A stretch of DNA of 64,000 bases from the IMG/VR virus record IMGVR_UViG_3300034013_000869, positions 1 to 64,000 of that record; one strand, 5' to 3'. Below are positions 3,320-63,326 of this stretch, piece by piece. Below the pieces are notes generated by a model that had not been told where the DNA came from, did not search any database, and was given only the letters and a program-made list of their open reading frames with translations. Source of the stretch: a virus. The position numbers were made by a program, and so were the translations under genes. Positions within the stretch are counted from its first letter, which is position 1, and each line of letters starts with the position of its first letter.

Positions 3320-3541
3320 CTATATATTAAATATAGATTTGATTCTTTCTTTTCTTATTCTAACTCTTTCATATTTAGAGTGAAGACTATGCCATTCCAT
3401 TAAAGAAGCATTAATACTTGACTTACCAGTTTGTCTAGACTTCAACATAATCATATTTTTACCACTAAGTAATTGGCCAAAGACATCAAGAGTTTCTTTA
3501 TTATCCATAAATTCTTTTAATTTTTTCTTTTCGTCTTTCAA
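3320..3541 (-). CDS. mini-protein: terminase-like Walker A fragment with RxxKIxxI tail
   Basis: A 73-residue protein carrying an isolated P-loop, SGKNMIMLKSRQTGKSS, followed by INASLMEWHSLHS. This aligns with the start of the T4 gp17 large-terminase ATPase (YVMLLSRQLGKTTVVAIFLAHF). The rest of the ATPase is absent, so it cannot be a working motor. The C-terminus RIRKERIKSIFNI matches the tail shared with many small proteins here. It is the last of four consecutive mini-genes (3320-4250). The terminase assignment of the fragment is inference from this short match. Confidence 0.6.
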   Translation of the reverse strand: MKDEKKKLKEFMDNKETLDVFGQLLSGKNMIMLKSRQTGKSSINASLMEWHSLHSKYERVRIRKERIKSIFNI

Positions 3542-3683
3542 TTTTATCTCTATACTTACGAGAATTAGACATTATTGTATAAATTTCTTTACTAAATTTT
3601 TCTAAAATATTATTTTGATATTTAGATTTACTCTGATTTATCATACCAATATGATCCAATACAATAATATCTCTTTTAATCAT
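3501..3683 (-). CDS. mini-protein: RecA/DnaB-type Walker B fragment with RxxKIxxI tail
   Basis: A 60-residue protein starting MIKRDIIVLDHIGMINQSK, which looks like the Walker B strand of a RecA-fold replicative helicase (gp41/DnaB) or recombinase; UvsX in this window has ILIVLDSIGMMSS. No Walker A is present. It ends KIERRKEKIKRIYG, the shared tail. It overlaps the following mini-gene by 41 bases and the preceding one by 8, so translation of the four is probably coupled. The parent protein cannot be decided by eye. Confidence 0.55.
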   Translation of the reverse strand: MIKRDIIVLDHIGMINQSKSKYQNNILEKFSKEIYTIMSNSRKYRDKIERRKEKIKRIYG

Positions 3684-5072: not shown

Positions 5073-8000
5073 ATGGCAAATTTTTCAGACTATCCACTTA
5101 GGCCAAAAATACCTAATCTAGGAACATCCTCAATACCAGCTGTGGTAGCAACTACATCGATGAAATCACCGTTGGATAATTCTTTTATTAAAAATATGAG
5201 TTCTATCATATCCAAAAAACCTTTATTAATTTCAAAGGCAGATTTAATAGGTCTTGGGAAAAATAAAAAGTTAGTTGGATATAATCCTTTACAAGACTTA
5301 GTATCAGATGCTGGTAAATCATTTAGTCCTAGAATTATAAACTGGGTTGAACCATATGAAATAAATGGTATTGATAAAAGTTTATTTTACACTGAAGTCA
5401 ATTCAGGACTTAAAGTTGGAGATAGAGTATTTATATTAAATGGAAATTATGATAGTGATAGTTTAATTATATCCAATAAATATAAAAAAGGCAGAGACGG
5501 GTATAAAGTTCTTTTTGTTGATAATTGTCAAATAGTCTTAGATATAGATTATACTGGAGTTTTACCATATTTAGAAGAATCAATAGATAAATTTATAAAA
5601 GTTTATTACATAAAAAATGTACAAGATTTTTTACATGCTAATAGACATGCAACTACTGGATCTGCTGAATTTGATTATAAATTTAACTACTACCAAAATA
5701 ACATAGCATTTATTGACCAAGATTATACAACAACAACAAGTTGGGGTAGAAATGGTGGTATTATAGGTTCACCTGGATTCTTTGTAAAATCTGGTATAAC
5801 ACAAAGTTGGACAAATATTAGTAATGATTTAATTAATAGTGGATCATATTCATATGCACTTTCACCTATTTATTCAAATAATGATAGAATAAAAATAATG
5901 GAAAGTGACTTTACCTATAATGGTAAAACATTTCAAGAAGGATTTGTATATAAATGGAATGTAGGACCTACTCAATCAGAGTGGATAGTTGATGTTAAAT
6001 ACTCTAAACCACTTATAACAAAGGGTAATTTTAGAGATGGTAATTTTAATGGATTTTGGAATACTGGTTTATTTGGTAGTCAAAATAAACAAATAAAGTG
6101 GGAGGGCAAAACTTCAACTTGGAAATCAGGAACTTTATTAAATACAAATTGGATAAAAGGAACATATGAGGCTTTATATACATTACCAGAGAGTTATTAC
6201 TCTGGGTTAAATGATGATGGATTTCCATATCAGAAACTAAATACACCTAATAATTCAGGTAGGAGTTTTAATTTTATAATAGACTCTATTATAGAACAAT
6301 CAACAATTAATAATGGTACAATTATTAATTCAATAATAGGAACTTCATCAGCAACTTATTCAGTTGTTGAAAACTATTTGATGAATTATACAACACCTTA
6401 TCCAAATCTTATTAAGAAAGCTTATTTTGAAGATTGTAATTTTAATAATGCTTACATTTCTAATTCTGAATTAAAAAATATTAAAACAAATAACTCAAAG
6501 TTTGAAAATGTAAAATCAGTAAACTCTTATTTTAGAAACTCTGTTTTTATCAACTCAAATTATAATAGTGATAACATTATAAAAATATTAGGATATGATG
6601 AGTTAAATGCAACTGAATATCCAAGTATAGGTTCAACATTTAGTATTGGTGGATCATATGCTTCATTAAATGATGTATCTCAAAAAGTTTATAAATTTTA
6701 TATAAACGAAAGTGGTTATAATAGATTAAAAACTGGAGATAAACTATACATAAAAGGTATAAAGTTAAATAATAGTAGTAAAGAAATACTAAATCTATTT
6801 GATAAGAAATTAAGATTAGGGTCTTGGACAGAATATATTGATGATTATAACATCTATACAAATAAATTCTTTAAAAGAGGTATTGATGTCTCTGCATTTT
6901 TATCTTCTCCTTTAGAGAATTCATATTTATTCGAAAGTGTTAGAAAACCAATCGATCCATTGAACACAACTTCACCTGATACTTATCACACTTCAGTTTA
7001 TTCTGCTAACCCAAATAGTAATCTTTATTCAATAGATATTTGGATGAGTATTTATGATATAAATGATGAAGTTTTATTACCTTCTAGTCCAGGTTTAAAT
7101 GGTATGACATCACCAACACCAAATAGACCATTTTTGAAAGAATATTTAAATATAAATACTAGTTGGGAATATCCAACTAAATATGATTATATTTCAGCAA
7201 CTGGATCAGGCCCAGTAAAATTAGGAAACATAGTAGATGTGACAAACGCATATATCGTTGATGCTGATTTTGAAAGTGGTATTTTTGAAAACTCAAATTG
7301 GAATAGTGGATATCATATAAATTCTCAAACTGACTTAAATATAACAGATTCGTCAGCAACTTCATCATTAAATGATGGAGTTTATAACTTATCATTTACT
7401 TCAAGTAATAGTTTATTAGCAACTTCTTTATATAATCAATTTCATCAAGAAACTGAATATCCTTTATTTGTAGGAGAGGTTGTATTTTTAGATGGTGTTG
7501 ATTTTAATGATGGTACAACCATTACAAGATTACCAGATGCTTACAAAGTAGTTTCAAATAATTTATTAGGAGTTTATAAATTAGAAGAGTTAGTAACAGG
7601 TACAGTTAGTATCATATCATCATTAACTCAATCAACAGGAACTTTCTCTACAACTAATGCGGGTAATAGATATGGTTATATTAAATCACTTAAATTCAAT
7701 AAATCAAAAATAAAATCTGGTATCTTTAGAAGACCTTATATCACAAACTCTATAATTGAGAACGATTCTTATGATTCTTTGGATAAAGATTTTAGTGATA
7801 TACCAAAACTTAGAAACTTAGTAGTAACAGACTCTTTATTTACAAATAAGTCAAATAGATTATCATCAGCTACTTATCTTTATTCATCGTTTTTATCTGG
7901 TAGTGATAGTTGGAATAATGGTATAATACAAAACTCTATATGGGTTAATGGTACTTTCTCAAGTGGTGTTATAAAAGAATCATCTTGGTTAGATGGTGTA

Positions 8001-13857: not shown

Positions 13858-14047
13858 TTTTATTCAGTATTTGTTCAATTTTATAGTCTCTATTTTTTCT
13901 AAAGTTTATAATAGAGAATGATTCTTCAGATCTAAATCCACAATGTTTACAAATATAAACGAGTGGTTTTGGAATGTATCCATAATTAGAAACAGGTTCT
14001 GAAAGACTTGTTTTAATATCAGTAGATTCACATTCTGGACAATTCAT
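13847..14047 (-). CDS. zinc-ribbon mini-protein with RxxKIxxI tail
   Basis: A 66-residue protein with two zinc-binding knuckles: CPEC at 3-6 and CKHC about 30 residues later. The C-terminus NRDYKIEQILNKNEL carries the shared tail. It overlaps the next zinc-ribbon gene upstream by four bases. The two adjacent zinc-ribbon genes look like diverged duplicates. A nucleic-acid-binding role is possible, but it could equally be a piece of a larger zinc-binding protein. Confidence 0.6.
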   Translation of the reverse strand: MNCPECESTDIKTSLSEPVSNYGYIPKPLVYICKHCGFRSEESFSIINFRKNRDYKIEQILNKNEL

Positions 14048-14337
14048 ATATCTAATATCTGATTAATTTTTTTTTCTCTTAAAATTGCTTTATTTGTTCT
14101 TTCAAATTCACCTCTTTCATCTTTATAACCACAATCATTACAAATACTTTGTGATGGAATAGTCGGTTTAGAACCATCGGTTGGTATAAAAAACTTCCAT
14201 TTAATATTCTTACTTTTACAATTCGGACAACCTGATAAATCTTCTAAAGTTCCTATAAATCCTGACTTTTGTAATTTTCCTAAATCATATGTTTTATTAC
14301 TTTGATTAGGAAACAAACTAAGTAATTTTTTAATCAT
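14044..14337 (-). CDS. zinc-ribbon protein with RxxKIxxI tail
   Basis: A 97-residue protein. CPNC and CNDC form a zinc ribbon separated by a KWKFFIPTDGSKPTIPSQSI loop. The C-terminus LREKKINQILDI is one of the cleanest copies of the shared tail. It overlaps the bS21 gene by eight bases. Relationship to the neighbouring 66-residue zinc ribbon is suggested by the same order (CxxC, about 25-30 residues, CxxC, tail). Confidence 0.6.
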   Translation of the reverse strand: MIKKLLSLFPNQSNKTYDLGKLQKSGFIGTLEDLSGCPNCKSKNIKWKFFIPTDGSKPTIPSQSICNDCGYKDERGEFERTNKAILREKKINQILDI

Positions 14338-14521
14338 TACTTCTATATTTCTTATTAATATAAGCAGCTCTACTTTTAGCGGCTCTCTTTCTATCAGATT
14401 TAGGAATAAATTCTTTTCTATCTCTAATTTCTTTAATAGCTTTAGTTTTGTCCCATTTTCTTTTTAGAACTTTCAAAGCTTTTTCAATTGGTTGTTTACT
14501 ATTTACTTCTACAATTAACAT
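14330..14521 (-). CDS. rpsU: phage-encoded ribosomal protein bS21
   Basis: bS21 is a small-subunit ribosomal protein near the 3' end of 16S rRNA that influences translation initiation. This 63-residue protein follows the family throughout: an N-terminal short strand, then ALKVLKRKWDKTKAIKEIR and SDRKRAAKSRAAYINKKY, as in E. coli ALRRFKRSCEKAGVLAEVR and ERKRAKASAVKRHAKK. Large phages are known to encode bS21, which is thought to replace the host copy and favour phage mRNAs. It is coupled to the zinc-ribbon genes. Confidence 0.9.
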   Translation of the reverse strand: MLIVEVNSKQPIEKALKVLKRKWDKTKAIKEIRDRKEFIPKSDRKRAAKSRAAYINKKYRSND

Positions 14522-15403: not shown

Positions 15404-16936
15404 ATGTTAAAAAGATACTTTGATTTTGTAAATGAATCTCTAAACTTAATACTAGAGTCCGATGTTGTTTATTCTAGTAAACTTAGAAATGTATTATCTA
15501 AAATAGATAGTGAAATCTCTAGAAAACTTATTGAGATAGAAAATAGAGACCTTCCAGTTAGAAGTAACTATTTTGATATCATTTCAGATAAAAATGATAT
15601 GGTTTCATTTATACCAGATAGAAAAGCTCAAGAAATACTTAAAGATGTTAAAGAATTCTGGAGATTCAATGGATCTGGCGGAGGTTGGTTAAAACACTCA
15701 GAATCAAATGCTGAATTGTTTTCTAAATTAGGATATGTTCCAGAAGGAAATCCTTATTCACCAAACTCAAGAGATATTGGTGAAATAGTTGCAGAAACTA
15801 CTTCAGAAACATCTGGTAACACATATTGCTGGGTTAAATTCATGAATGGTACTGGAGAATATATTGGACAAGGAGTTTATAATAAAGAAAAACTTATAAA
15901 AGCAGAAGGAATTAAAGAGAAAGAAGTTTGGACTAAAAGTAGACAAGAAATCGGTGTAGGTAGAGGAATTAGAGCTTTATTATTAACAACTGGTGAAAAG
16001 TTTTTAGATAAAGATATTGAACAATTTGTTAATATTTATAAAGCAACAATTGATAAATTAAACGATAAGTTTAGTTTTTTTGAAGTTGTTAGTGGAACAG
16101 ATATTCATTATTGGTATAATTATGATAATTATTACCAAAGAAGTGGATCATTAGGAAGTTCTTGTATGGCAAGTGCAAGAGCAAGTTGGTTAGAAATATA
16201 CACTGCTAATCCAGAACAATGTTCAATGGTTATATTCAAATCACCAGATGATATTAATAAAATAGTTGGAAGAGCTATCTTATGGACTTTAACAGATGGT
16301 AAAAAGTTCATGGATAGAATCTATACTATAAATGATTCAGATGTTCAGTTGTTTAGAGAATACGCTAAAGAAAATGGATGGTATGCAAAATATCATAATA
16401 GTAGTACATCAAATTCCGATGCTTACGCACCAGATGGTACAAAAACAAACTTGAATTTAAGGGTTAATCTTTCTCAGAAAGACTACGACTATTTTCCTTA
16501 TTTAGATACTTTAAAATATTTTACACCAGGAAGTGGAATATTAAATAACACTGATGGTGAATATGCACTCGAAGATACTGGAGGTGGTCATTCATCTTGT
16601 GATTGTTGTGGTGGAAGTGGTAGAACTGAATGTGGTGATTGTGATGGAAGAGGAGTAGAAGACTGTAGTAATTGCGATGGAAGTGGAAAAGAAGAATGCT
16701 CAGAATGTGATGGTAATGGGAAAAACACTTGTAATAATTGTGATGGTTCAGGAAAAGTAGAAGATGATGAAGGAAATGAGATTGATTGTGATGAGTGTGA
16801 TGGAGATGGTGAATTAGAATGTGATGATTGTAATGGAAGAGGTAAAGTAGATTGTGATGAGTGTGATGGAGATGGTGAACACGATTGTAATAGTTGTGGT
16901 GGAGATGGTGAAGTTGATTGTTACGAATGTAACTAA
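15404..16936 (+). CDS. putative capsid-targeted protein with C-terminal DnaJ-type zinc clusters
   Basis: A 510-residue protein starting MLKRYFDFVNE, a clear capsid-targeting-like leader with a V-N-E site. The middle (about 215-385) is homologous to the protein at 33130-34083: VVSGTDIHYWY, SLGSSCMASARA, IVGRAILW, DRIYTI, FREYAKENGW and DYFPYLDTLKYF all have counterparts there. The C-terminal 120 residues are a run of about ten CxxCxGxG-type units with very acidic spacers, like a greatly extended DnaJ zinc domain. Function unknown; it may be packaged in the head. The stop overlaps the convergent gene by four bases. Confidence 0.7.
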   Translation: MLKRYFDFVNESLNLILESDVVYSSKLRNVLSKIDSEISRKLIEIENRDLPVRSNYFDIISDKNDMVSFIPDRKAQEILKDVKEFWRFNGSGGGWLKHSESNAELFSKLGYVPEGNPYSPNSRDIGEIVAETTSETSGNTYCWVKFMNGTGEYIGQGVYNKEKLIKAEGIKEKEVWTKSRQEIGVGRGIRALLLTTGEKFLDKDIEQFVNIYKATIDKLNDKFSFFEVVSGTDIHYWYNYDNYYQRSGSLGSSCMASARASWLEIYTANPEQCSMVIFKSPDDINKIVGRAILWTLTDGKKFMDRIYTINDSDVQLFREYAKENGWYAKYHNSSTSNSDAYAPDGTKTNLNLRVNLSQKDYDYFPYLDTLKYFTPGSGILNNTDGEYALEDTGGGHSSCDCCGGSGRTECGDCDGRGVEDCSNCDGSGKEECSECDGNGKNTCNNCDGSGKVEDDEGNEIDCDECDGDGELECDDCNGRGKVDCDECDGDGEHDCNSCGGDGEVDCYECN

Positions 16937-17346
16937 TCTATAACTTGATTAATTTTCTTATCTCTTATAAATGATCTATATATCTGGAAATATTCAGATT
17001 TCTCAGATGCTATTGTTTCTTCAAAATTACTATAATTTAGTTCAATTTCAATTGAAAGTGGTATAAAATTACCATACCAATCAAAACAATCATTTTGTAT
17101 TTTTACAATAGTGGATGAATTAAATATACTAAGAACCTTAAATTGATCAAAAATTATAATTGTTCTTTTATCAAAAACATCAATAGGATCATTGGTATAC
17201 TTATTCATCCATTCTTTGAAAAATCGGATAGAATTTTCACAATTTGTAGTAACCTTTATATAAGACCTACCTGTTTCAGATACCATATTAACTTTAGATA
17301 TCTCACCTATAACATTTAATCCATTTTTATCATCTATTAAAATCAT
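16933..17346 (-). CDS. hypothetical protein with RxxKIxxI tail
   Basis: A 137-residue, mostly beta-strand protein (VIGEISKVNMVSETGRSYIKV, TIIIFDQFKVLSIF). The C-terminus FIRDKKINQVID is a close copy of the shared tail. It overlaps the upstream small gene by four bases. No known family recognised. Confidence 0.6.
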   Translation of the reverse strand: MILIDDKNGLNVIGEISKVNMVSETGRSYIKVTTNCENSIRFFKEWMNKYTNDPIDVFDKRTIIIFDQFKVLSIFNSSTIVKIQNDCFDWYGNFIPLSIEIELNYSNFEETIASEKSEYFQIYRSFIRDKKINQVID

Positions 17347-20452: not shown

Positions 20453-20638
20453 TCACCAGATTTGTGGGAAGTTAGTTGGTCCTTTTGGAGTAGAAGTTAT
20501 AATAACATTAGGAACATCTATTCCAAATATTTTACCTATTTTTATTTTTCTTAAATATCTTTTAGAATATTCAACACCTGATGTATCTTTTTCAATGAAG
20601 TGAATACCTGGTCTCACATATCTACCTATTCTGTTCAT
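20453..20638 (-). CDS. mini-protein: terminase-like fragment with RxxKIxxI motif
   Basis: A 61-residue protein. The C-terminal NVIITSTPKGPTNFPQIW closely resembles the segment of T4 gp17 terminase just after Walker B (KIIITTTPNGLNHFYDIW). Before it is RYLRKIKIGKIFGIDVP, a copy of the shared RxxKIxxI motif, internal here. I choose the ATG at 20638, which overlaps the upstream gene by 17 bases; an ATG at 20698 would overlap it by 77. It adjoins the gp23-like fragment gene, so two virion-protein fragments lie side by side. Confidence 0.55.
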   Translation of the reverse strand: MNRIGRYVRPGIHFIEKDTSGVEYSKRYLRKIKIGKIFGIDVPNVIITSTPKGPTNFPQIW

Positions 20639-21119
20639 TTGATTTCTTCTTTTTACTTCTTCTTGTTTTCTTGTGAGTTTTAGATGATTCAGCTCCATAT
20701 TTATAATCTAAATAGAATAAAGTACCTGATGGAGCAGACATTGGAGTTACTCCTTTTTTCATCAACTCTTTATATTCTTCATCATCTTCTAACTTCTTTT
20801 CAGTAAATTCACCACCTTCAATAACAGCTTCAATTTTACCATCACGATTTTCAGAATTTACTCTACTTTTTACATCATCAATTTCTTCTTTTGATGCGAA
20901 TCCTATTATTTCATTGGACATTAATTTTGATGATACTTTCATAGCCATTGGTAGTAAACTTGGAAACTCTTCAGTTTTAGTTTCTTCTAATATTTGATTT
21001 GATTGATTTTCGGCTAACTGAGCTAAATTGTCTAATTGAGATCCAGTCATACCCATAGACCCTAAGATAGGAGCCCATTTTTTCATTAATTCTTCTTTAT
21101 TTGGTTGTTTCATAAACAA
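20622..21119 (-). CDS. truncated gp23-like (major capsid protein N-terminus) paralogue
   Basis: A 165-residue protein resembling only the first quarter of T4-type gp23. NKEELMKKWAPILGS and the following NQ-rich segment match the T4 propeptide (KAELLNKWKPLLEGE...ENQEK). LPMAMKVSSKLMSNEIIGF and VTPMSAPSGTLFYLDYKYG match the T4 RRAIPNLIAFDICGVQPMNSPTGQVFALRAVYG region, with a roughly 45-residue insert between. Directly after YKYG it ends in a basic tail (KTRRSKKKKSNEQNR). It cannot form the HK97 capsid fold. It may be a decaying duplicate or a small head-associated protein. Confidence 0.65.
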   Translation of the reverse strand: MFMKQPNKEELMKKWAPILGSMGMTGSQLDNLAQLAENQSNQILEETKTEEFPSLLPMAMKVSSKLMSNEIIGFASKEEIDDVKSRVNSENRDGKIEAVIEGGEFTEKKLEDDEEYKELMKKGVTPMSAPSGTLFYLDYKYGAESSKTHKKTRRSKKKKSNEQNR

Positions 21120-26868: not shown

Positions 26869-29800
26869 TTACATCCAAGTAGCTTCAAATACACCGTTAT
26901 ACCAGATACCGCCTTCCCATAAACCAGTGTCAAATAAACCATTTGTCCATATTCCTGACTTCCAATTTAGGTTTGTAAATTTACTAACAACTCTCAAATT
27001 TGTCTCAACTAAGTTAATAGATGTACCTGAAAGATTATAATTAACATATATTGTTGTAGTCTCATTGATATTATCTTCTTCAGTAAAAAGTACTTTATAT
27101 CTACCCGGTGCTGAATTCGATCCGTATATAGAATAAGTTCCACCAATTTGATTGTCTATAATATAGATATCGTCACCTATATTAAATTTGAAAATTCCAT
27201 TAAGTGTGAATGTATTATTAACAGTATCTACACCAACAACTTGAATATCTTCAAGTATACCACCATACCAAGTACCTAATTTCCAATCCATGTTATAAGC
27301 AATACCACCATACCACTCTCCAGATAACCATTTACCTGTTTTCCAGATTGAGTATTTATGTTTGTCTGAAACATCTAATTGACCATCACTATTTCTATTA
27401 AGTTCAGAGTAAAAACTTCCACTAACCCAATTTCCAGCTTGCCAAGTGGACGTTCTACTATTGAATGATTTAGTACCAAATCTAGATTCGCCATTCTTTT
27501 GTTGCCAGTTACCATTATACCACATACCATTCTCAAAGTCACCGCCATTCCAGTTACCATCTAACCAATAAGCAGGTTCACTATCACAATTGAAAATACC
27601 TGTATTCCAAGTACCTAATATCCAAATACCTCCTTGAAATAATCCGTTATTCCAAACACCATCATTCCAAGTACCTTTATACCAAATACCATTATTCCAA
27701 GTACCATCATACCATCTACCATTATTCCAAGTACCATTATTCCAAGTACCAGTATACCATCTACCAGTATACCAAATAGACATCTCTTTATCTACGGTTT
27801 TAGTATCAACACTAACTGATAGAATTCTATCATCAATTTTATTTGAGTTCCAAGTACCACCGTACCAATCACCACTCATCCAAACTCCAGAATGCCAAGT
27901 TCCGCCGAACCATCTACCACATTCCCAAGTTCCTTTATACCAAACCAATTCTTCAGTACCAAGACCAATAATAGCTCCTGATATCTCAGCTTCTAGAATC
28001 CAAGGATATGATAAAGAAATAGTCTCTAGGTTTAATCCATCCACTAATCTATATCTATATTTATCATAGTCTATGTCAATCAATGAATAAACACTACCAG
28101 ATAACTTAAGATTTTCGACTGTTAACTCAATTGATTGTTTACCTCTTTGATCAGCACCATAGTCAATCAAATCAATCGGTTGATAGTTTAAGAATGGATC
28201 TTGTCTAGTATATCTAACATATCCATCATCATTACCTAAAAGAGGAGTTGTTCCATAATCTATATCTACTACAAAGTCATAATCAGTTACTTTTATAACC
28301 GGATGATATCCAAAATATTGTTGATTAAGTTGTTGTGAAGAACCAGTACCTCCAGTAAATTCAAGATTCACACCATCCCCAGTAATCAATTCATGTTTTT
28401 GTGAACAAGAAATATATAATTTACCTGGAACATATATAACAGAACCAATTCCTGTTTGACTGGTATTTAATATAGGAATAGAATATTCTTTAGCTAATCT
28501 CGTTATATTCATTGCCAATTCATTTTTATAATCGACATAAATTATAGCTGATAACTTACTAACCGTATTTGCATCCGATAATAAAATTTTAGCATAAGAG
28601 TCTGTAGGTATTTTGAAGTTTAACTCATTTTCATATGACTCATAATTAAAAAGACCTTGATCTTTCCAAGAGTTTGTTTTACCTTTTGTTCTTTGTATAT
28701 TATTTAACTCTTGTAAATCTTCACTTATTTGAGAAAGATATCTTCTGGATACAATATCTAATGTACCTGATAATATAGCAGTATCACCAAGTACAAAGTT
28801 TAACCTTTTATGAAACTCAATAACATAAGCTTCTTGTACCTCATCATAGTACTTATCCATAACTAATAATTTTTCAGTTGTATAAGTTGAAGAACCATTT
28901 ATATTAACATCAACAAATGTATTTATGAAAATACTATTCCATTCTAAATAAAGGTCATTACCAAATAGTATTTTATTACCTTGTGAATTTAAATCATAAG
29001 AAGCTGTCATACCATTATAATCAATATAAGCTGTTGAGGCGGTCAAACTACCCAATGGTATATTTCTATACTCTGGCATTGCTAAATATTCTTTAGTAGC
29101 ATAAAAAGTTGGATTCAAATCACCAAAACCATTTATACCCTCTAAATAACTTAATAAATTATAAGTAGGTGAGTATCCAAAATTTAAAAATCCAGAAGTA
29201 TATTTCATTTCAGAATAATTACCACCAATTATAACATTTGTTGCTAAGTTATAATAACTAGTTAGATTATTAAAATCAGCACTCATTTTAAGAATACTTG
29301 ATGTAGAACTTAAAACATTACCATAAGAATCTGAATATTCTAATTTATAAGCATTTCCAATAGGGTGTTCATTAAATCGATAAGTCAACTCATCAATTGT
29401 CTGATATCTATTTAAGTTTGTTAAAGTAATGCTATAAGTTGTACTTTGAAGTTCCTTAATAATATTACCATTAAAATCAGTAAACATATAGATGTAATTA
29501 CGACCAGAAAGTGTCTCAACTCTATTTACAACAAATTGACCATCAACAACAGAACTATTAAATTGAATAACATCTCCTACACTAACCGGATAAGATGTAG
29601 TAACTTTATAAACCATTAAATAATCATAGATATAGATGTCATACGGTGATGTTGGAGCAGATATAACCGGCAATCCTTGTGAATCATATCTACTTTGAGT
29701 AGCAAGTGTAATCATAGGAGCCAAATATGATATCTGAGAAGCTGAACCTGTTATAGATGATATAGTATTTGATGTCGAAACTGAACTATATGAAAAAGTA

Positions 29801-32031
29801 GTTGACATTAAAACACTAACTGACTCATCCATAGGAGTATTAGTATAAAACTGGAATGTTTTTTGTCTATCACTCCAATAAGTGATCCAATTTGTTTCAG
29901 ATTGTGTCATAAAACTTGGAGCAGTTGCTGAAATAATAAGTGGTTCAAACGCTAAATAAGAACCAACAAGAGATGTATCACTAAAGGTCAATGAGTTTGG
30001 AAGTCTATAATCACCAGCATCTGTAAAGAAGTTTAATTTACTAGCAATATCATAATCCAATACCAATAATTTAGACTTTAATTTCTCTTCAAAAGTAGGA
30101 TCTAAAACATTAAAGTTTAATACACTATATGTAGATGATTGTAATAGTGATGTATTACCACATATTATCAATTCACTACCGTCATAATCAAAAATTTCAT
30201 TAGGATAAGTAACATATTCAAAAGTAGCCGCTGTTAATCCAACAGTTTTATTTGAATAAGAACTACCTGTTCCTAAATATTGAAAGTTATTAATATCGAA
30301 TGAGAAAATCCCATCTTGATTAGTGACATTATCAGTACCTGTAAAATAAAAATAATCTGTGTTTTTTCTTCTTGTAATACTTCTTATATCACCATAATAA
30401 TTTGAAAAGTCAAAATAAATAAAGTCAGTTCCTAAATCAGAGAATGAACTATTAATATCATAAGCTATAATATTACCATTATCAGTAGCTAAGAAAAGTA
30501 AATCTTTCTCAGTTGGTATTGAATAAGTTGAATATGAGTAAGAAGCTGCCCAAGTTGTTAACTTTGTTTTATAAATATCATTAATATTATCAACTAAAAC
30601 ATATTCATCTTCTTCATCATTTATCTTAGATATTCTTCTTTTATAAGCCACCCAACCGTCAATACTATCAACCATCTCAATCAAAACTCCTGTATTACCT
30701 GCTATAAAAAAGCTAGTAGCTGTTGAAAATAAAACTTTATTATAATTATAAGAATTAAAATCATCTAATTCAATTCTTGTCCAAGTATAACCACCATTTT
30801 TAGTAACTAAAATCGTATTTAATTCACCAACAATAACCCCTCTAAGATCATTAAAAAATGACACTGAATAAATATTTGTCTTTATTATTTGAGGTTGTAA
30901 GGAAGTAACATCTTCTATTTTTATTCTTTCTATTTCAAAGTCGTGTTTTCTTACTTTTAGTAAAGTATTACTATCACCACATATCCAGTAGTATTGAGAT
31001 GTCTCTGATATACCTCTTAGATTTACTTTATACTTATTTTTGATAATATTTGACTTACCTTCTTGTGTATTTAGAATAACTCCAAATTCACCTACTGATA
31101 TGGTTCTTGTAGGAATAGTATATGTTATATTTTCAAAAGTATATGATTGTGTTCCATTTTTTATAACATCAAAATAGTTTATTTCAAATAAGTTATTATA
31201 ATCAACTCTGTTTCTTAAAATCCAATTTTTCTTTTCTTTGAATTCAATTGGTTGACTAAGTGCAGTAGTTGGATAAAAACCATCTAATAATCTAGATAGA
31301 TGAAGTTGTTTACCAGCATTGTTAGTTCCTAATTTAACATTAGTGCTAAACCTAATACATTTTTTATAATCATCAAGAATTATATCTCTTACTAGTTTAC
31401 CACCTTGATAAGTATAAATACCATTCTCTTCATTATAATATTGATATTCAATAGTAGCTCCAAGGTCTAAAGTGATTGTATATCTACCAGTAAAATAAAT
31501 ATCTGGGTCAGTACTATTTAATAAAGTAACATTTGTAACTTGATCTTTTACTAAAACTTTATGACCTTCTTTAAGTCTAATATCATCAATATAATAAGGA
31601 TCTGTAACTAATGTAAGGTCTATTTGTTCTGTTGTAGCCACATCAACATAGTGATAGTTTTTTAAAGAATCTTTAATTAATCTAGATGGTGTAAATAAGT
31701 TTTTCAGAGTTAAACCATATTCTGATACAGATTTGTTATAAAAGTCATAAGAACTATCATTTGTGATTTGAGAGGCATCTTGTGGTGGTATAGTAGATAT
31801 ACTATACGGAGAACCTATTATTTGTGGTATATACCAATTTCTAAATTGATACTCTTCTATAATATCATAAATATTACTTAAATCATTAACTGGTAGATAT
31901 GTAGCACCACTTAAACACTTAGAGTAAAGTCTTGTAGAACTAAGTTCTTGTTTTAGATAATTAAAGTCACTCTTTGTTAACTTATCATCTGTTGATGACC
32001 ACTTATTAAAATCACTATTGTATTTCCACAT
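26869..32031 (-). CDS. giant virion protein: beta-propeller-like segment and W-x-x-G repeats
   Basis: A 1720-residue protein, the largest in the window, probably a tail or baseplate component. Residues about 350-560 hold propeller-type units with an Asp-box/BNR motif (VTKNGGYTWTRIE), as in Ycf48-like or sialidase-like propellers. Residues about 1370-1500 and near the C-terminus are a dense (W/F)-x-x-G-x array, for example WNNGTWNNGRWYDGTWNNG. The same five-residue pattern is in the proteins at 5073 and 9607. The protein ends on a repeat (NGVFEATWM). A ligand-binding or host-recognition role is inference. Confidence 0.75.
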   Translation of the reverse strand: MWKYNSDFNKWSSTDDKLTKSDFNYLKQELSSTRLYSKCLSGATYLPVNDLSNIYDIIEEYQFRNWYIPQIIGSPYSISTIPPQDASQITNDSSYDFYNKSVSEYGLTLKNLFTPSRLIKDSLKNYHYVDVATTEQIDLTLVTDPYYIDDIRLKEGHKVLVKDQVTNVTLLNSTDPDIYFTGRYTITLDLGATIEYQYYNEENGIYTYQGGKLVRDIILDDYKKCIRFSTNVKLGTNNAGKQLHLSRLLDGFYPTTALSQPIEFKEKKNWILRNRVDYNNLFEINYFDVIKNGTQSYTFENITYTIPTRTISVGEFGVILNTQEGKSNIIKNKYKVNLRGISETSQYYWICGDSNTLLKVRKHDFEIERIKIEDVTSLQPQIIKTNIYSVSFFNDLRGVIVGELNTILVTKNGGYTWTRIELDDFNSYNYNKVLFSTATSFFIAGNTGVLIEMVDSIDGWVAYKRRISKINDEEDEYVLVDNINDIYKTKLTTWAASYSYSTYSIPTEKDLLFLATDNGNIIAYDINSSFSDLGTDFIYFDFSNYYGDIRSITRRKNTDYFYFTGTDNVTNQDGIFSFDINNFQYLGTGSSYSNKTVGLTAATFEYVTYPNEIFDYDGSELIICGNTSLLQSSTYSVLNFNVLDPTFEEKLKSKLLVLDYDIASKLNFFTDAGDYRLPNSLTFSDTSLVGSYLAFEPLIISATAPSFMTQSETNWITYWSDRQKTFQFYTNTPMDESVSVLMSTTFSYSSVSTSNTISSITGSASQISYLAPMITLATQSRYDSQGLPVISAPTSPYDIYIYDYLMVYKVTTSYPVSVGDVIQFNSSVVDGQFVVNRVETLSGRNYIYMFTDFNGNIIKELQSTTYSITLTNLNRYQTIDELTYRFNEHPIGNAYKLEYSDSYGNVLSSTSSILKMSADFNNLTSYYNLATNVIIGGNYSEMKYTSGFLNFGYSPTYNLLSYLEGINGFGDLNPTFYATKEYLAMPEYRNIPLGSLTASTAYIDYNGMTASYDLNSQGNKILFGNDLYLEWNSIFINTFVDVNINGSSTYTTEKLLVMDKYYDEVQEAYVIEFHKRLNFVLGDTAILSGTLDIVSRRYLSQISEDLQELNNIQRTKGKTNSWKDQGLFNYESYENELNFKIPTDSYAKILLSDANTVSKLSAIIYVDYKNELAMNITRLAKEYSIPILNTSQTGIGSVIYVPGKLYISCSQKHELITGDGVNLEFTGGTGSSQQLNQQYFGYHPVIKVTDYDFVVDIDYGTTPLLGNDDGYVRYTRQDPFLNYQPIDLIDYGADQRGKQSIELTVENLKLSGSVYSLIDIDYDKYRYRLVDGLNLETISLSYPWILEAEISGAIIGLGTEELVWYKGTWECGRWFGGTWHSGVWMSGDWYGGTWNSNKIDDRILSVSVDTKTVDKEMSIWYTGRWYTGTWNNGTWNNGRWYDGTWNNGIWYKGTWNDGVWNNGLFQGGIWILGTWNTGIFNCDSEPAYWLDGNWNGGDFENGMWYNGNWQQKNGESRFGTKSFNSRTSTWQAGNWVSGSFYSELNRNSDGQLDVSDKHKYSIWKTGKWLSGEWYGGIAYNMDWKLGTWYGGILEDIQVVGVDTVNNTFTLNGIFKFNIGDDIYIIDNQIGGTYSIYGSNSAPGRYKVLFTEEDNINETTTIYVNYNLSGTSINLVETNLRVVSKFTNLNWKSGIWTNGLFDTGLWEGGIWYNGVFEATWM
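27597..27790 (-). repeat. tandem 15-base repeats coding for W-x-x-G-x units
   Basis: About a dozen near-identical 15-base units (plus-strand form ATTCCAAGTACCATT and variants) run head to tail within the 1720-residue gene. Each encodes one five-residue unit such as WNNGT. The high DNA similarity means copy number could change by slippage or recombination. Confidence 0.7.
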
Positions 32032-45696: not shown

Positions 45697-46026
45697 TTAG
45701 TTTAATACCTGTTTTATTTTTTCGTCTCTTTGATAAGCTTTATAATCTTCTCCTTCCGTGATAAAATATTCTGACATTTCTTGTTCAGTAAAATAATACC
45801 ACTTTATTCTCTCACTATATGGTAAATTCCACCAATCTTTTCTACCAGAATGATATCCATGTTGATCATCTTCAACACAAAAACCATATCCTTTTCTACC
45901 ATTAACTTCTGGATCAGCATTAAATTCTAAATTACCTCTTCCTTTGATATCATAATGACTACCAACTTTAATAGTTTTGTATTCTTTGACACAAACAACT
46001 CTTTGACAATCCCATCTATCTTCCAT
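45697..46026 (-). CDS. small protein with RxxKIxxI tail
   Basis: A 109-residue protein with two or three strands at the start (QRVVCVKEYKTIKVGSHYDI) that look SH3-like, then an aromatic, acidic middle. The C-terminus AYQRDEKIKQVLN carries the shared tail. It overlaps the 55-residue mini-gene upstream by 11 bases. No known function. Confidence 0.55.
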   Translation of the reverse strand: MEDRWDCQRVVCVKEYKTIKVGSHYDIKGRGNLEFNADPEVNGRKGYGFCVEDDQHGYHSGRKDWWNLPYSERIKWYYFTEQEMSEYFITEGEDYKAYQRDEKIKQVLN

Positions 46027-46183
46027 CGAATAGTTTTTTAATTTTATATTTTCTAGCTTTTATAACATTAACTCTACATCTTAACTTGGATAACTCTGAG
46101 TAAACATCAGTTACATTCATAGCACCGTAGCTCGAGTTCAAAATCATCTTGTAATAAGCTAATTTACTTTCTAATTCTCTCAT
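46016..46183 (-). CDS. mini-protein: family-B DNA polymerase motif B fragment with tail
   Basis: A 55-residue protein. LAYYKMILNSSYGAMNV matches motif B of family-B DNA polymerases (K-x3-N-S-x-Y-G-A; T4 gp43 has LLINSLYGALG). It then diverges into a basic segment ending ARKYKIKKLFDGR, the shared tail. No other polymerase part is present. The ATG overlaps the stop of the phosphoesterase gene, so it is probably translated by coupling. Confidence 0.55.
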   Translation of the reverse strand: MRELESKLAYYKMILNSSYGAMNVTDVYSELSKLRCRVNVIKARKYKIKKLFDGR

Positions 46184-46785
46184 AAATCTCCGTGATGGTC
46201 AATTTTTTCCATAGTTCTCTTTGACATTATATTAGTAATATCACCTATGTTAAAAGGTCGATATTCACCAAACATTTTATAAGCAACATCAACTCCAACG
46301 TCCATAGAACGACCAAAGTCTGGGATAGAACCGTGTGAGTGACCATAAAGATGTATAACACCTTTGTGACTACCTAACCAAACTCGATGTGAGTAGTGAG
46401 AAAGGAATAGTTTTGTTTTACCAATATCTAAAGTTAAAACATCTTGAACTGATGAAAAAAGTTCAATTGGGTTAAATGATGTATCGTGATATTTTATTTC
46501 TTTGTCTACTATGTGTTGGTCATGATTTCCTAAAATAAGATGTACATTTTTACAAACAATGTAGTTTCTAAATTGAAGTATGTTATGAACTCCACCGAAA
46601 CTCCAATCACCTAAGTGATAAAGAATATCATCTTCTTTAACATATTTGTTGATACCATCAACAAGTGCCATATTCATTTCATGTACAGAGTTAAAATCTC
46701 TATATCCTGAAGACCAGTTCGATATTTTGGGACCAGCTATGTTAGTGTGTCCAAAGTGTGTGTCTGATGTAAACCATATATTCAT
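46180..46785 (-). CDS. calcineurin-like metallophosphoesterase
   Basis: A 201-residue phosphoesterase. Metal-binding motifs are in order: SDTHFGH (7-13), LGDWSF, LGNHD, LSHYSH and YGHSHG. At this size it matches small phage phosphoesterases often annotated as Icc- or YfcE-like, not the gp47/Mre11 nuclease partner of gp46. The substrate is probably a phosphodiester or nucleotide. It is the first gene of the leftward 39-47 kb block. Confidence 0.85.
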   Translation of the reverse strand: MNIWFTSDTHFGHTNIAGPKISNWSSGYRDFNSVHEMNMALVDGINKYVKEDDILYHLGDWSFGGVHNILQFRNYIVCKNVHLILGNHDQHIVDKEIKYHDTSFNPIELFSSVQDVLTLDIGKTKLFLSHYSHRVWLGSHKGVIHLYGHSHGSIPDFGRSMDVGVDVAYKMFGEYRPFNIGDITNIMSKRTMEKIDHHGDL

Positions 46786-46854: not shown

Positions 46855-47619
46855 TTATTTTTTGACTTCTTTCCAAAAGTGCTTTTGTCCAGGTTCTTCT
46901 TGAATTTTCCCATCTTTAAATGCAAACTTTTTCAAACCACCAACTGGTATTTTATATGAATCGGACTGATTAGGTGGGGTAGGTGGAGTATCAGTAGAAT
47001 CTTTGAATCTACCAGTAAACTTATCATTTTCAGGTCTATAATAACCAACAGCCGCACTATCAGTACCATCATATCCAAAAAATTCAAGAATCTTAGTTAA
47101 TAACCAACTAACCACAAACGATCCTATCCAATATAAAGCAGCAATAGAACCACTACCATCTGTCATAAATAATCCTGTAACAAATGCCGGTAATCCAAAC
47201 CAACCAGCAATATTCAATCCGAATAAATATTTAAGAGTTGCCAATATTTTTACTATAATGTTTTCACCTTCTACTGTATGCCACTCATCACTTTGACTCT
47301 CTTTAACAGGACTTAGTTTAAGAGCCTCTATCATTTTAGAAACATTTTTTGAATCTAACTCTGGAGTAATTGTTCCAAAATTTTTCATCATAAAGTCATA
47401 TATTTTCTTTAATGATTCTTTACTTGGTTTTATAGAATTCAAAATATCATGACCTTTATCTTCTAACCATTTCTCAACAGGTTTAACCATTGTGTTTTTT
47501 ATTTCATTATAGATTGATTTATAAACATCAGCTGCTCCAGCGATTGGATCAACTGGCATAAACATCATGTCCATAGTTTCATTTACATTGAAAGATTCAA
47601 ATTTTTTAATATATTTCAT
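46855..47619 (-). CDS. membrane protein with capsid-targeting-like leader
   Basis: A 254-residue protein starting MKYIKKFESFNVNE, a strong leader with a V-N-E site. Residues about 40-130 are helical. Hydrophobic segments near 145-170 (LFGLNIAGWFGLPAFVTGLF) and 176-195 (ALYWIGSFVVSWLLTKILEF) can span a membrane. The C-terminus is Pro-rich. If packaged and injected, it could insert into the host membrane early in infection; this is inference. A TAATATATA-type box lies at 47643-47652. Confidence 0.65.
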   Translation of the reverse strand: MKYIKKFESFNVNETMDMMFMPVDPIAGAADVYKSIYNEIKNTMVKPVEKWLEDKGHDILNSIKPSKESLKKIYDFMMKNFGTITPELDSKNVSKMIEALKLSPVKESQSDEWHTVEGENIIVKILATLKYLFGLNIAGWFGLPAFVTGLFMTDGSGSIAALYWIGSFVVSWLLTKILEFFGYDGTDSAAVGYYRPENDKFTGRFKDSTDTPPTPPNQSDSYKIPVGGLKKFAFKDGKIQEEPGQKHFWKEVKK

Positions 47620-49874: not shown

Positions 49875-50378
49875 ATGAAAAAAATAAAAGATTTCAAATC
49901 ATTCAATGAAGCACTAGCAGGTCATATGGGAGCGGTTCATTCAGCTACAAGGAATATGAAGTCAGCTTCTGGTGAAGAACCTTCTACTAAATCAGATGAA
50001 TTCTCACTACACATTTGTACCGATCCATTATATAAAAGGTTTGCTAACTATAACTACAAACTAAAAGATGTGGAAATTGAAAAAGTTGAGCCTAAAAAAG
50101 GATTTATGTCTAAATTATTTAGTGGTAGTTCATCTATTGATTTTACATTCACTAAAGTAAAAGACAACTCTGAAGCTTTTTTATCTTTAAAATTAAAAGG
50201 AGATAAATTTGTTTTAGCCAATTCTTCAACAAGTGAGAACATTATGGCTACTATTCCGGATTTAGAACAAGCTAAAAAGTTTCTTAACTTTCTATTAGGA
50301 CAATCCCAATGGAAAGATGAATTAACTAAGAATTTTGAAAATATAAAAGAATCGCTAACAATTGAATCTTTCAAATAA
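49875..50378 (+). CDS. putative capsid-targeted protein with CTS-like leader
   Basis: A 167-residue protein starting MKKIKDFKSFNEA, a strong leader. The body includes a strand-rich region (SIDFTFTKVKDNSEAFLSLKLKG). The last 16 residues (KNFENIKESLTIESFK) are almost identical to the end of the next gene product, though the middles differ. This gives a shared start and end around different cores. Function unknown. Confidence 0.6.
   Translation: MKKIKDFKSFNEALAGHMGAVHSATRNMKSASGEEPSTKSDEFSLHICTDPLYKRFANYNYKLKDVEIEKVEPKKGFMSKLFSGSSSIDFTFTKVKDNSEAFLSLKLKGDKFVLANSSTSENIMATIPDLEQAKKFLNFLLGQSQWKDELTKNFENIKESLTIESFK
50331..50378 (+). repeat. direct repeat copy 1 (gene 3' end)
   Basis: 48 bases, including the stop codon, that match 50772-50819 at about 43 positions. 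Both copies end a leader-bearing gene. Confidence 0.8.
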
Positions 50379-50832: not shown

Positions 50833-51456
50833 ATGATAAAGAAATTTAACCAATTTGTAAAAGAAAATGTTTCACTAAGTAATTCGGCAGCTAGAATATA
50901 CATTGATAGTGATGAAGCCGAAATGTTTACTACTGAACCAGCTTTGCAAAAATTAGTATCAGATAGAAAAGTATCTCTACTACCACCAGAACTTTATTTT
51001 GAAGCAGAAGATAAAAGTACAATTGAGATACTTAAAGGATATTTTCCAGATGTTGATTTTGAGGATGATTTTGAGGATGAACATTATAGTGGTGACGATG
51101 AGGACGAGGATGATTCAGATGGATTTGACGATGATGACTACGAAATGAGTAATGAAGAAATTAACTTAAAAGGCCTTGCTGCTGGAGCAATGATGGCTTT
51201 AATGACTGCTTGTCATAATGGTGAAATAAATGGTGAGCCATATGAAGGATATACTGGCGATATGTTAGTAAAAAAGATTGAAATGGGTGGAGGTAAATAC
51301 AACCACTTTCTTGTACACGGACTTGATGAAGATGGTAAATATGTTGAATTTAGAACAGATAATCTAACTTTTAATGTAGGAGATTCTATTCATGTTGACT
51401 TCTCAAAAGAAGAAGCTTATCCACTAGATGATAAAGAAAATATAGGAAAATTCTAA
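50833..51456 (+). CDS. putative capsid-targeted acidic protein
   Basis: A 207-residue protein starting MIKKFNQFVKE (V-K-E site). Residues about 75-105 are almost entirely Asp, Glu, Ser and Gly. The C-terminal part has LKGLAAGAMMALMTACHNGEI and a compact domain with HFLVHGLDEDGKYVEF. The acidic stretch could mimic DNA or help in capsid-core packing. Function unknown. A bidirectional terminator follows. Confidence 0.6.
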   Translation: MIKKFNQFVKENVSLSNSAARIYIDSDEAEMFTTEPALQKLVSDRKVSLLPPELYFEAEDKSTIEILKGYFPDVDFEDDFEDEHYSGDDEDEDDSDGFDDDDYEMSNEEINLKGLAAGAMMALMTACHNGEINGEPYEGYTGDMLVKKIEMGGGKYNHFLVHGLDEDGKYVEFRTDNLTFNVGDSIHVDFSKEEAYPLDDKENIGKF

Positions 51457-58170: not shown

Positions 58171-59928
58171 TTATTTTATTCTTGTATGAAAGCTATGGCC
58201 CTCATTAATTCTTTCTAATTCTTTTAGATAAATTTCTTTACCTTCTTTCATATATTGAGCTAACATTTGAACTTTTTTATAGTCACCCTCATCTAAAGCA
58301 GCATCAATTAACTCTTGTAATTCTCTTGGAGTTAAATCAGCATAATCTACTTCACCTTCAGTTTCTTCAGATCCACCATATAAACTTTGTTTAACTAATT
58401 TATCAATGTCAGATTCTTCTTCTTCTTTACCTGGCTCCATAGTACCATCTTCTTCCTCTTCTTGACGATATTTTTCTTCTTCCTGACGATATTTTTCTTC
58501 TTCTTGTCTTTCCTTTTCTTCTTGTTCCCATTCAGCAATTTCTCTATTATAGTCTTCGATATCTTCAACGATATAGTCAACTATCTTTTTGATTTCTGTT
58601 TTAGCTAAAGATGAATTGAATTTTTGTTCATTAATAACAAATTCAATTTTACCACCTCTTTCAACACTATCAAATACAGAGAACATACTTTTCATAATAT
58701 CTAAGAATTGTTTATCAGTTCTAGCAATATCTGCTTTCTTTTTCAAAAATTGTTTATGTTCTTCAGGAGCATTTTTAACTTCTTCTTGAGCTCTTTCTTT
58801 ATCAACAGCTAACATTGTAAATACTCTTGTTTCTAATCTTTTATAATCATTAGATTCAGAAAATTTATTAACAAAAGTTAATAACATTTGTAAAGCTGGT
58901 GGTCCATATCTAAAGTCTTGAGCTTCATCCATAAAAGATGAAGTAGCTTTTTTAACTATTTCTGCAGTTTTCTTATCTTTCTTGATAGCACCAGATTGTA
59001 AGAAAAGGAATATACCTTTAATTGTCTCGTGAATCAACATTGGAAAATCAACACCAGCAGATTTAATAACTATTTTAGTAGCTTCTTTTTCTAAAAGAAG
59101 ATTCATATTATAAAAGTTACCTGACAAACTTTCCCATTTAACTTGAACAGCTCCAGCCATACCACCTGGTTGATTTCTCATCATACTAGCTTTTCTATCA
59201 ATTGGAATAACCCAGTCCATTTTATCAGCGATATCTGACATTTGAACCCATAAGTTTAATATTGTTCTATAACCATCACCGAAAATTTGTTGTAAACCTT
59301 CATCAACAATATCAGAAGCTCTAATAATATCTTTTGTAGATTTACCAGCGGCTTGAGTAATCATATTAAGAATCTTTTTCTTTTCAACCGCATCAACTAA
59401 ATCAGTTCCAGGAACTTCTTCTTGTTCTTCATCTGATCCAGACTCTTGATTTTCATCTTGGTCCTCATCTTGGTCCTCTTGGTCTCTCTCATCTTGCTCT
59501 TCTTGGTCTTGTTCAGTAGGCTGTTTAGCTTGTTGAGGAACTTCATTAATATCTCCAATTTCTCTATTAACAGAACCCATCGGTACTAATTTAATATCTA
59601 ATTCAATTGGCTTAATAGATGAATCTAAAATTTCACCGAATTGATCTCTTACTACTTTCTCAGCTAACTTTTCTAATTTAGCAATTCTTTCTTGTACTTC
59701 TTGTTGTGATAATCTTTGTCCATTAGGACCTGTTGATAAAATTTGTTGAGATTGTCTCATAGCACCTTCAAAAGATGGCCAAAGATTTCTCATTTGAGAC
59801 TCATCATCAGGTCTGATACCTAAATTTCTTGCAGCTTCTTCATCAGATTTACGCATGAAATCAGTAGGGACTCCCTTATTTCCTCTCAAATCAACTTCTT
59901 CTTTTATAAATTTTTCAAAATTTTTCAT
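58171..59928 (-). CDS. large putative capsid-associated protein with CTS-like leader
   Basis: A 585-residue protein beginning MKNFEKFIKEE. Two acidic low-complexity stretches, about 135-175 (QDQEEQDERDQEDQDED) and 465-510 (repeated EEKYRQEE), separate helical domains. This composition resembles T4 scaffold or internal head proteins. The sequence IKKIVDYIVEDIEDYN and ELQELIDAALDEGDYKK suggest long helices. It has no catalytic motif. Nine bases separate it from the ankyrin gene downstream. Confidence 0.62.
   Translation of the reverse strand: MKNFEKFIKEEVDLRGNKGVPTDFMRKSDEEAARNLGIRPDDESQMRNLWPSFEGAMRQSQQILSTGPNGQRLSQQEVQERIAKLEKLAEKVVRDQFGEILDSSIKPIELDIKLVPMGSVNREIGDINEVPQQAKQPTEQDQEEQDERDQEDQDEDQDENQESGSDEEQEEVPGTDLVDAVEKKKILNMITQAAGKSTKDIIRASDIVDEGLQQIFGDGYRTILNLWVQMSDIADKMDWVIPIDRKASMMRNQPGGMAGAVQVKWESLSGNFYNMNLLLEKEATKIVIKSAGVDFPMLIHETIKGIFLFLQSGAIKKDKKTAEIVKKATSSFMDEAQDFRYGPPALQMLLTFVNKFSESNDYKRLETRVFTMLAVDKERAQEEVKNAPEEHKQFLKKKADIARTDKQFLDIMKSMFSVFDSVERGGKIEFVINEQKFNSSLAKTEIKKIVDYIVEDIEDYNREIAEWEQEEKERQEEEKYRQEEEKYRQEEEEDGTMEPGKEEEESDIDKLVKQSLYGGSEETEGEVDYADLTPRELQELIDAALDEGDYKKVQMLAQYMKEGKEIYLKELERINEGHSFHTRIK
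58460..58512 (-). repeat. tandem 21-base repeat coding for EEKYRQE
   Basis: Two or three near-identical units (plus strand TTCTTCTTCCTGACGATATTT, in part) give EEKYRQEEEKYRQEE in the acidic linker. Copy number is likely variable. Confidence 0.6.
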
Positions 59929-62807: not shown

Positions 62808-62836
62808 AAAATCCCACTTAATAAGTGGGATTTTTT
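62808..62836. terminator. rho-independent terminator
   Basis: AAAATCCCACTTA and TAAGTGGGATTTT form a hairpin with flanking A and T runs, between convergent genes ending at 62805 and 62818. Confidence 0.85.
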
Positions 62837-63075
62837 ATTTCTATAGTTCCGTAAAAGTTATTATTTATAATCTTTTTAGAGTATCTACTCATAATTGATT
62901 TACTTGGTGAGAATTCATCTTTAACATCTAAACCTAAACCAAATATCTTATTAATCTTTCTTTTTCTACTTACATTCTTAGAAGTATATCCAGATATAAC
63001 AGAAGTGGTTGTCAATGGAATATAAGGAGCAAAAACATAACCTTGTTCTAAATTACTTTTCTTTCCTATTATCAT
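62818..63075 (-). CDS. gp23-like C-terminal fragment with embedded RxxKIxxI motif
   Basis: An 85-residue protein. GYVFAPYIPLTTTSVISGY resembles the GIYYAPYVALTPL segment near the C-terminus of T4 gp23. SIMSRYSKKIINNNFYGTIEI resembles the RYxxK...NFYG end of related capsid proteins. Between them is NVSRKRKINKIFGLGLDVKD, holding the shared tail motif. It cannot be a capsid subunit by itself. With the gp23 N-terminal fragment at 20622 it suggests repeated capture of capsid-gene pieces. Moderate confidence. Confidence 0.55.
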   Translation of the reverse strand: MIIGKKSNLEQGYVFAPYIPLTTTSVISGYTSKNVSRKRKINKIFGLGLDVKDEFSPSKSIMSRYSKKIINNNFYGTIEIKNPTY

Positions 63076-63211
63076 TGAATATTTTTTTAATTTTTTCTTT
63101 TCTTTTATCTTTTCTAAGAAAAGAACTTAAAAAGTTCATAGAAGAATAGTCATGTAATCTACTTCCAGGTCCACCTAGTACAACATTCCACTCATCTCTC
63201 GCTTTTATCAT
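63053..63211 (-). CDS. mini-protein with RxxKIxxI tail
   Basis: A 52-residue protein: IKARDEWNVVLGGPGSRLHD, then SSMNFLSSFLRKDKRKEKIKKIFNDNRKEK (tail motif KRKEKIKKIFND). The first 25 residues may be a piece of a larger protein that I cannot name. It overlaps the gp23-like fragment gene by 23 bases and the upstream mini-gene by 20, so the three are probably coupled. Confidence 0.5.
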   Translation of the reverse strand: MIKARDEWNVVLGGPGSRLHDYSSMNFLSSFLRKDKRKEKIKKIFNDNRKEK

Positions 63212-63326
63212 ATAATCTTTTGATTTTATTTTTTCTCTTTTCAGATCTTTCTTTTTTAGACCATCTGAAAATTGAATCTGTTATAGACTCTTGAAACTCT
63301 TTTGATTGATTTTCCCAAATTGACAT
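63192..63326 (-). CDS. mini-protein with RxxKIxxI tail
   Basis: A 44-residue protein starting MSIWENQSKEFQESITDSIF and ending KRKNKIKRLYDKSER, with the shared tail. It is the first of three overlapping mini-genes on the minus strand. The A-rich region before the ATG fits a start in this genome. Function unknown. Confidence 0.5.
   Translation of the reverse strand: MSIWENQSKEFQESITDSIFRWSKKERSEKRKNKIKRLYDKSER

Follow-up and report, generated by a model that had tools for sequence, protein, structure and literature searches.

A gene of 55 codons in a Maha-type huge phage encodes a small protein, here called a mini, in which the core of motif B of family-B DNA polymerases is joined through a spacer to a C-terminal tail that recurs on many other proteins of these phages. 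It is a real, conserved gene with selection on both the motif and the tail; there are sister minis with other core motifs, and the tail, or tag, is limited to one clade. The window analysed here is a stretch of 64,000 nucleotides, i.e. bases 1-64000 of a 175,660 b record that is itself a fragment of a Maha-type phage. The N-terminal half (N-half) of the polymerase in this record is 84% identical to the N-halves of LR745206 (634,780 b) and LR756502 (642,428 b). We note that the clade name Maha-type is our own reading, drawing on the genome sizes and on PMC7162821, in which Bacteroidetes are the predicted hosts of the genomes above 634 kb.

The motif-B mini and its orthologues

The gene lies in an operon-like run (Table 1), overlapping the phosphoesterase gene by 4 nt (ATGA) and the downstream gene by 11 nt. 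Its product, read from 46183 to 46016 on the minus strand, is MRELESKLAYYKMILNSSYGAMNVTDVYSELSKLRCRVNVIKARKYKIKKLFDGR, followed by a stop codon. The small motif-B gene of the original prediction is thus real, as it is conserved in syntenic orthologues. The protein end given there, ARKYKIKKLF, is correct as to the tail, but the terminus lies three residues further (...KKLFDGR).

The 55-aa mini had no hits in Pfam or the PDB, only an unknown family in PHROGs (0.061) and nothing better than E 2 in tblastn against phages; a neighbour search for the locus in bacterial genomes gave nothing. Since IMG/VR scans gave no confirmed relatives, whether run with the protein alone or with the five-row alignment described below, orthologues were sought by synteny. 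LR745206 has a 52-aa ORF, MDKSWIKISINSYYGTYN...KRKSKIKNIWKIDGML, flanked by the phosphoesterase and MEDRWD genes, and the IMG/VR contigs L075, L076 and L079 have syntenic ORFs of 54-57 aa. The alignment of these four with the window mini shows invariant columns at M1, K12, N16, S17, Y19, G20, R44, K45, K47 and I48. A wider synteny search added three orthologues (L168, L170, L175), found after the prediction was made, and all ten invariants are kept in them. The eight sequences (29-67% identity to that of the window) therefore have exactly ten invariant columns, which are Met1, the five motif-B residues and four residues of the tail. The mini is absent at the syntenic place in L077, L078, L172 and LR756502.

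Whether motif B could be a chance match was examined with an HMM built from 11 real motif-B regions and run on 888 ORFs. The mini ranked second (12.1 bits, E 0.0074); the maximum in 20 shuffled proteomes was 10.4 bits, and one spurious 33-codon frame scored 12.9 bits. Judged from the single sequence, the motif is suggestive, of borderline above-chance status, and it is its conservation in eight sequences that lifts it above chance. The probability that five invariant body columns coincide with the five motif positions is 1/C(43,5) = 1e-6, and hhalign of the mini profile against polymerase motif B gave a probability of 77-82% (E 1e-5 to 2e-5) over 14 columns. The K-x3-N-S-x-Y-G pattern, as originally read, is thus very probably a genuine motif B. 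Between the mini and its L075 orthologue dN/dS is 0.25/0.70 = 0.36. The motif codons differ among the orthologues (TCT, TCA, TCG and AGC for the serine), which indicates that selection acts on the protein. The motif-B minis have the canonical NSxYG where the own-lineage polymerases have NGSYG. The flank of the motif in the window mini is nevertheless nearest to the own-lineage polymerases (43-45 vs 39 or less for more distant phages), so mimicry of foreign proteins is not general.

The split polymerase and a motif-B insert in three relatives

The N-half of the polymerase (record 85315-86844, minus strand, 509 aa) is of family B, as the original reading supposed. It contains motif A (DFASLYPTTQ), and motifs B and C are absent. 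The same break right before motif B is found in LR745206, LR756502, LR756504, LR756501, LR756500 and Lak-A1, and two polymerase genes are also present in PAU, Chryseobacterium phage MA9V-2, pT24 and a cyanophage. In LR745206 the C-terminal half (C-half), with motifs B and C, spans 130634-131950 and is separated from the N-half by about 100 kb. No C-half was found in the 175-kb record; it lies outside it, and no N-[SA]-x-Y-G was seen in the record's frames of at least 40 codons besides the 55-aa ORF. A split gp43 is already known: in Aeromonas phage 25 its two parts, 43A and 43B, purify together and have polymerase activity (PMC2988022). As LR745206 has a complete C-half alongside the mini, the mini is an extra gene and no remnant of the split, and we ruled it out as the phage's missing polymerase half. 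The absence of the remaining polymerase, as originally remarked, is no accident here. The relatives examined all have the enzyme split into N-half and C-half, and the mini is additional to both. Elsewhere in the record, a 413-aa ORF (101706-102947, minus strand) with DIKNSQP and, later, LFGRNGS and VHDSI recalls a family-A palm.

The C-half gene of three Maha-type contigs is interrupted between the Tyr and the Gly of motif B (Table 1). The inserts are 39, 42 or 48 nt long and combine a stop codon in frame (TAG/TAA) with a strong hairpin (-30.7 kcal/mol, z -4.6 in one example); in 3/3 contigs they are followed by 428 open in-frame codons. Their recurrence in diverged contigs makes an assembly error unlikely. 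T4 gene 60 carries a coding gap, and the insert is alike in outline. The insert is possibly a translational bypass element, with splicing or readthrough as alternatives; matching take-off and landing codons were not found at it.

The shared tail and the sister minis

The tail was searched as R-x-x-[KR]-[ILV]-x-x-[ILVF]-[ILFYWMV] within the last 20-22 residues, with composition-matched shuffles as the control. It ends 18 of the 210 ORFs of the window (0.39 in the shuffles) and 107 of the 986 of LR745206 (2.9 in the shuffles). In the stretches examined its share was 10-11% in LR756502, 5% in LR756504 and 1/130 ORFs in LR756501, and it was absent from those of LR756500, Lak, PAU, pT24 and T4. It is thus very well supported that the tail is a clade-limited C-terminal tag of Maha-type phages, and the mini belongs to this enriched tag family as defined here. 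A common form is R-[DEKN]-x-K-[IL]-x-x-[IL]-[LF], e.g. in the window ORFs 45697-46026, 16933-17346, 14044-14337 and 3912-4250. Many of the proteins that carry the tag have no recognised core.

The synonymous third positions of the tail codons vary and the next gene is on the opposite strand after 26 of 124 tail-bearing ORFs, i.e. about one fifth, which makes the tail mainly a protein feature. The same two observations ruled out that it serves as ribosome-binding region for the gene that follows. Position 7 favours the codon ATA, and there may be a small nucleotide-level contribution. ORFs with the tail are short (median 85.5 aa vs 192 for the others in the window; 105 vs 153 in LR745206). The idea that the tail might be a sliding-clamp-binding peptide was set aside, its likeness to the polymerase C-terminus (VVMDIF) being only loose.

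About 28 of the 210 ORFs have an N-terminus like MKxxKxFxxFxxE (e.g. window 46855-47619, 49875-50378, 50833-51456 and 58171-59928). These N-termini are similar to the T4 capsid-targeting propeptide and suggest many packaged internal proteins; the tail and such an N-terminus occur together in one ORF only 1 time in LR745206 vs 8.5 expected. Two very long proteins of the window (5073-9563 and 26869-32031) have many WxxGxWxxG repeats and are probably structural, and 14330-14521 reads as similar to ribosomal protein S21. Ribosomal protein S21 has been reported for huge phages.

Members of the RK-x-K-I-x-x-I-F sub-class are mostly 41-85 aa long and often carry a core motif of an essential protein. 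Among 344 small ORFs a core motif was seen in 9 of the 25 with an RK-tail and in 1 of the 319 others (Fisher p 1e-10), a value to be taken as descriptive since the core patterns were picked after seeing examples. The set of conserved cores joined to the shared tail, as originally proposed, is supported by sister minis with polymerase motif A, TerL, protease, capsid and scaffold cores. Capsid mini 62818-63075 matches the capsid of Microcystis phage Mel-JY01 (tblastn E 2e-6), and the 71-aa capsid-middle ORF matches those of Mel-JY01, immuto and T4 and hardly its own. The two capsid minis fit the Mel-JY01/immuto capsids (z 16-18) above their own (7.4 and 2.8), and the LR745206 capsid mini is nearest its own lineage. 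Tail-bearing minis just upstream of capsid minis (L055:15215-15367, minus strand; window 63053-63211) have the cores GRDVWMPNFWF and LGGPGSRLHDYSSMNFL.

Table 1. Features discussed in the text. Positions are those of the window unless another sequence is named; (-) denotes the minus strand.
Feature	Position	Evidence or remark
Mini-gene, 55 aa: polymerase motif-B core, spacer and shared tail	46016..46183 (-)	Synteny, dN/dS
Motif B, K12-x3-N16-S17-x-Y19-G20	46124..46150 (-)	Invariant in 8/8 sequences; hhalign
Shared tail, RKYKIKKLF	46028..46054 (-)	R44, K45, K47 and I48 invariant; C-terminal enrichment genome-wide
Upstream neighbour, phosphoesterase (phrog_547)	46180..46785 (-)	Syntenic anchor
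Downstream neighbour, 109 aa, tail-bearing (RDEKIKQVLN)	45697..46026 (-)	Syntenic anchor for finding orthologues
Motif-B insert, L183 (3300027969_000042)	L183, near 1500 (-)	
Motif-B insert, L184 (3300032280_000642)	L184:1501	
Motif-B insert, L181 (3300027631_000002)	L181:2202	
Polymerase motif A mini (DFASLYPSTQR)	LR745206 83154-83393	Same tag
TerL Walker A mini (KSRQTGKS) with tail	3320..3541 (-)	Weak TerL matches; counterpart LR745206 308370-308522
DnaB-like Walker B mini (IIVLDHIG) with tail	3501..3683 (-)	Read against own helicase, weak; counterpart LR745206 308177-308380
Prohead protease ADPGF-type core minis	record 128780-128950; LR745206 189488-189649	
Major capsid C-part mini (T4-type)	62818..63075 (-)	Tail module inside a loop; also LR745206 255010-255237, L093
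Capsid-middle mini, 71 aa	record 102988-103203 (L003:19088-19303, -)	Ends RKNSINKIFNNI
Scaffold repeat mini	LR745206 460435-460686	Same tag
Major capsid N-part, 165 aa	20622..21119 (-)	No clear tail; phrog_138 E 1e-5; homologues in LR745206 and LR756502
Possible terminase piece ITSTPKGPTNFPQIW behind internal tail-like module	20453..20698 (-)	Sequence reading only; no informative match in the library
Tail-bearing mini adjoining capsid mini	63053..63211 (-)	
Tail-bearing mini adjoining capsid mini	63192..63326 (-)	

Possible roles of the minis and known systems

The mini is unable to polymerise. The reading we tentatively favour is that it acts as a tagged mimic of motif B and competes with the genuine motif for one of its partners, preferably a sensor of the host defence. 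The binding, the competition, the partner's identity and the role of the tag are what we infer here. The first ~23 residues would copy the catalytic-site pattern and would be followed by a variable helical spacer and then by the tag R-K-x-K-I-x-x-[IL]-F, which appears to mark many small, apparently non-packaged proteins of the Maha clade. By occupying a partner that recognises the invariant polymerase motif the mini would spare the real polymerase, and the common tag would ensure the same handling of all minis inside the infected cell. It is conspicuous that only the nucleotide-contact residues are kept, beside a tag common to the motif minis, which points to recognition. Bacterial defence is known to target DNA polymerase (Borvo) as well as terminase and portal (Avs) (PMC11348598). 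We prefer a host sensor for two reasons: the residues retained belong to the catalytic site and not to an interface, and the known triggers of defence include polymerase, terminase and portal. The second choice would be polymerase assembly, either that of a rival or that of the phage itself. Against the mimic reading as a whole, a 25-residue motif cannot form the polymerase fold, the AlphaFold model of the mini is a helix-loop-helix, the flank of the window mini is nearest to own-lineage polymerases, and the tag is found on many proteins lacking a recognised core. On the scale of the genome, it is possible, if doubtful, that Maha-type phages possess a modular peptide-mimic system, with the tag on ~5-11% of the ORFs and minis with core motifs that blunt host defence or rivals, the tag being their common handle.

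The minis could instead be dominant-negative weapons that enter or block the capsid, terminase or split polymerase of a co-infecting rival phage, the tag aiding inactivation or removal. This is an unlikely but serious alternative, to which the resemblance of the two capsid minis to Mel-JY01/immuto capsids lends weight, as do the coming and going of minis between relatives (cf. L077, L078, L172 and LR756502, without the motif-B mini) and the two-piece polymerases of the Maha clade, PAU and Lak, which must assemble at the motif-B junction. However, co-assembly predicts that interface residues are kept, whereas the kept ones are dNTP-contact residues, and both the LR745206 capsid mini and the flank of the window motif-B mini are nearest their own lineage. 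It is rather improbable that the likeness is a coincidence and that K-x3-N-S-x-Y-G represents the functional residues of another kind of small tagged protein. Just 14 columns align, the significance of the single sequence is borderline with a spurious frame scoring as high, and the AlphaFold model, a helix-loop-helix (pLDDT 80, pTM 0.49), is dominated by spacer and tail; but all five invariant body residues fall exactly on motif B at the hhalign probability given above, a sister mini carries polymerase motif A, and core motifs are enriched among the RK-tail minis.

That the N-half stops right before motif B, and that the stop and hairpin lie inside the C-half motif B of three relatives, two of them with a mini, would fit an adaptor or regulator of the phage's own polymerase, which binds the N-half where motif B of the C-half would otherwise sit or provides motif B in trans. 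We consider this improbable, as LR745206 has a mini despite its uninterrupted C-half, LR756502 has none and the motif is NSxYG rather than the own NGSYG. Gene debris, i.e. functionless pieces of phage genes that were duplicated or captured and then recombined before a common tail, would explain why many core genes are represented by fragments and why these are present in some relatives and absent in others; the purifying selection seen in dN/dS strongly disfavours it, and the orthologues keep exactly the catalytic residues while the remainder drifts, so it is very improbable. Mobile elements are known to settle in motif B, and in relatives the real gene carries an insert at exactly this point, but a decoy or relic of an intein or homing-endonuclease site, for which the DNA of the motif would matter, is scarcely credible. 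The motif DNA is not conserved, the serine codon changing even between TCN and AGC, and neither an intein nor a nuclease was found at the mini locus; the remark that this is an intein insertion site thus gained no support.

If the minis are decoys, as the favoured competition for a motif-B partner would have it, they would reveal which residues of polymerase, terminase and capsid are sensed by defence systems or rivals, and would be ready peptide baits for sensors in Bacteroidetes. Whatever the mechanism, some of the largest phages carry the tag on about one tenth of their ORFs, which calls for a cognate receptor, be it a protease, a compartment or a scaffold. In the open-licence literature searched we found no description of such a receptor, of the tag and minis, or of a catalytic-motif peptide decoy with a shared tag.

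Among known systems, T4-type gp43, including the split 43A/43B of Aeromonas phages 25 and 44RR (PMC2988022), has the K-x3-N-S-x-Y-G motif in common with the mini, and the real polymerase of the Maha clade is likewise a two-gene enzyme. Unlike gp43, the mini has no exonuclease or palm domain and no motif A or C; it is no polymerase but an additional gene, and not one of two genes that cover the whole enzyme. The mimicked proteins overlap with the Borvo and Avs triggers sensed by bacteria (PMC11348598), and a decoy role would be the putative addition here. The tag, a short peptide on many unrelated phage proteins and evidently a sorting mark, is in this respect similar to the T4 capsid-targeting sequence, a short N-terminal peptide common to packaged proteins; it differs in its C-terminal (sometimes internal) position, in its restriction to one clade and in that it is hardly ever combined with a capsid-targeting-like N-terminus. 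Phage satellites encode proteins that interfere with capsid and terminase, and like these the minis would be small and directed against central components of morphogenesis. Unlike them, the minis occur outside a satellite context, their tag is spread across a 640-kb genome, and motifs of replication enzymes are mimicked as well.
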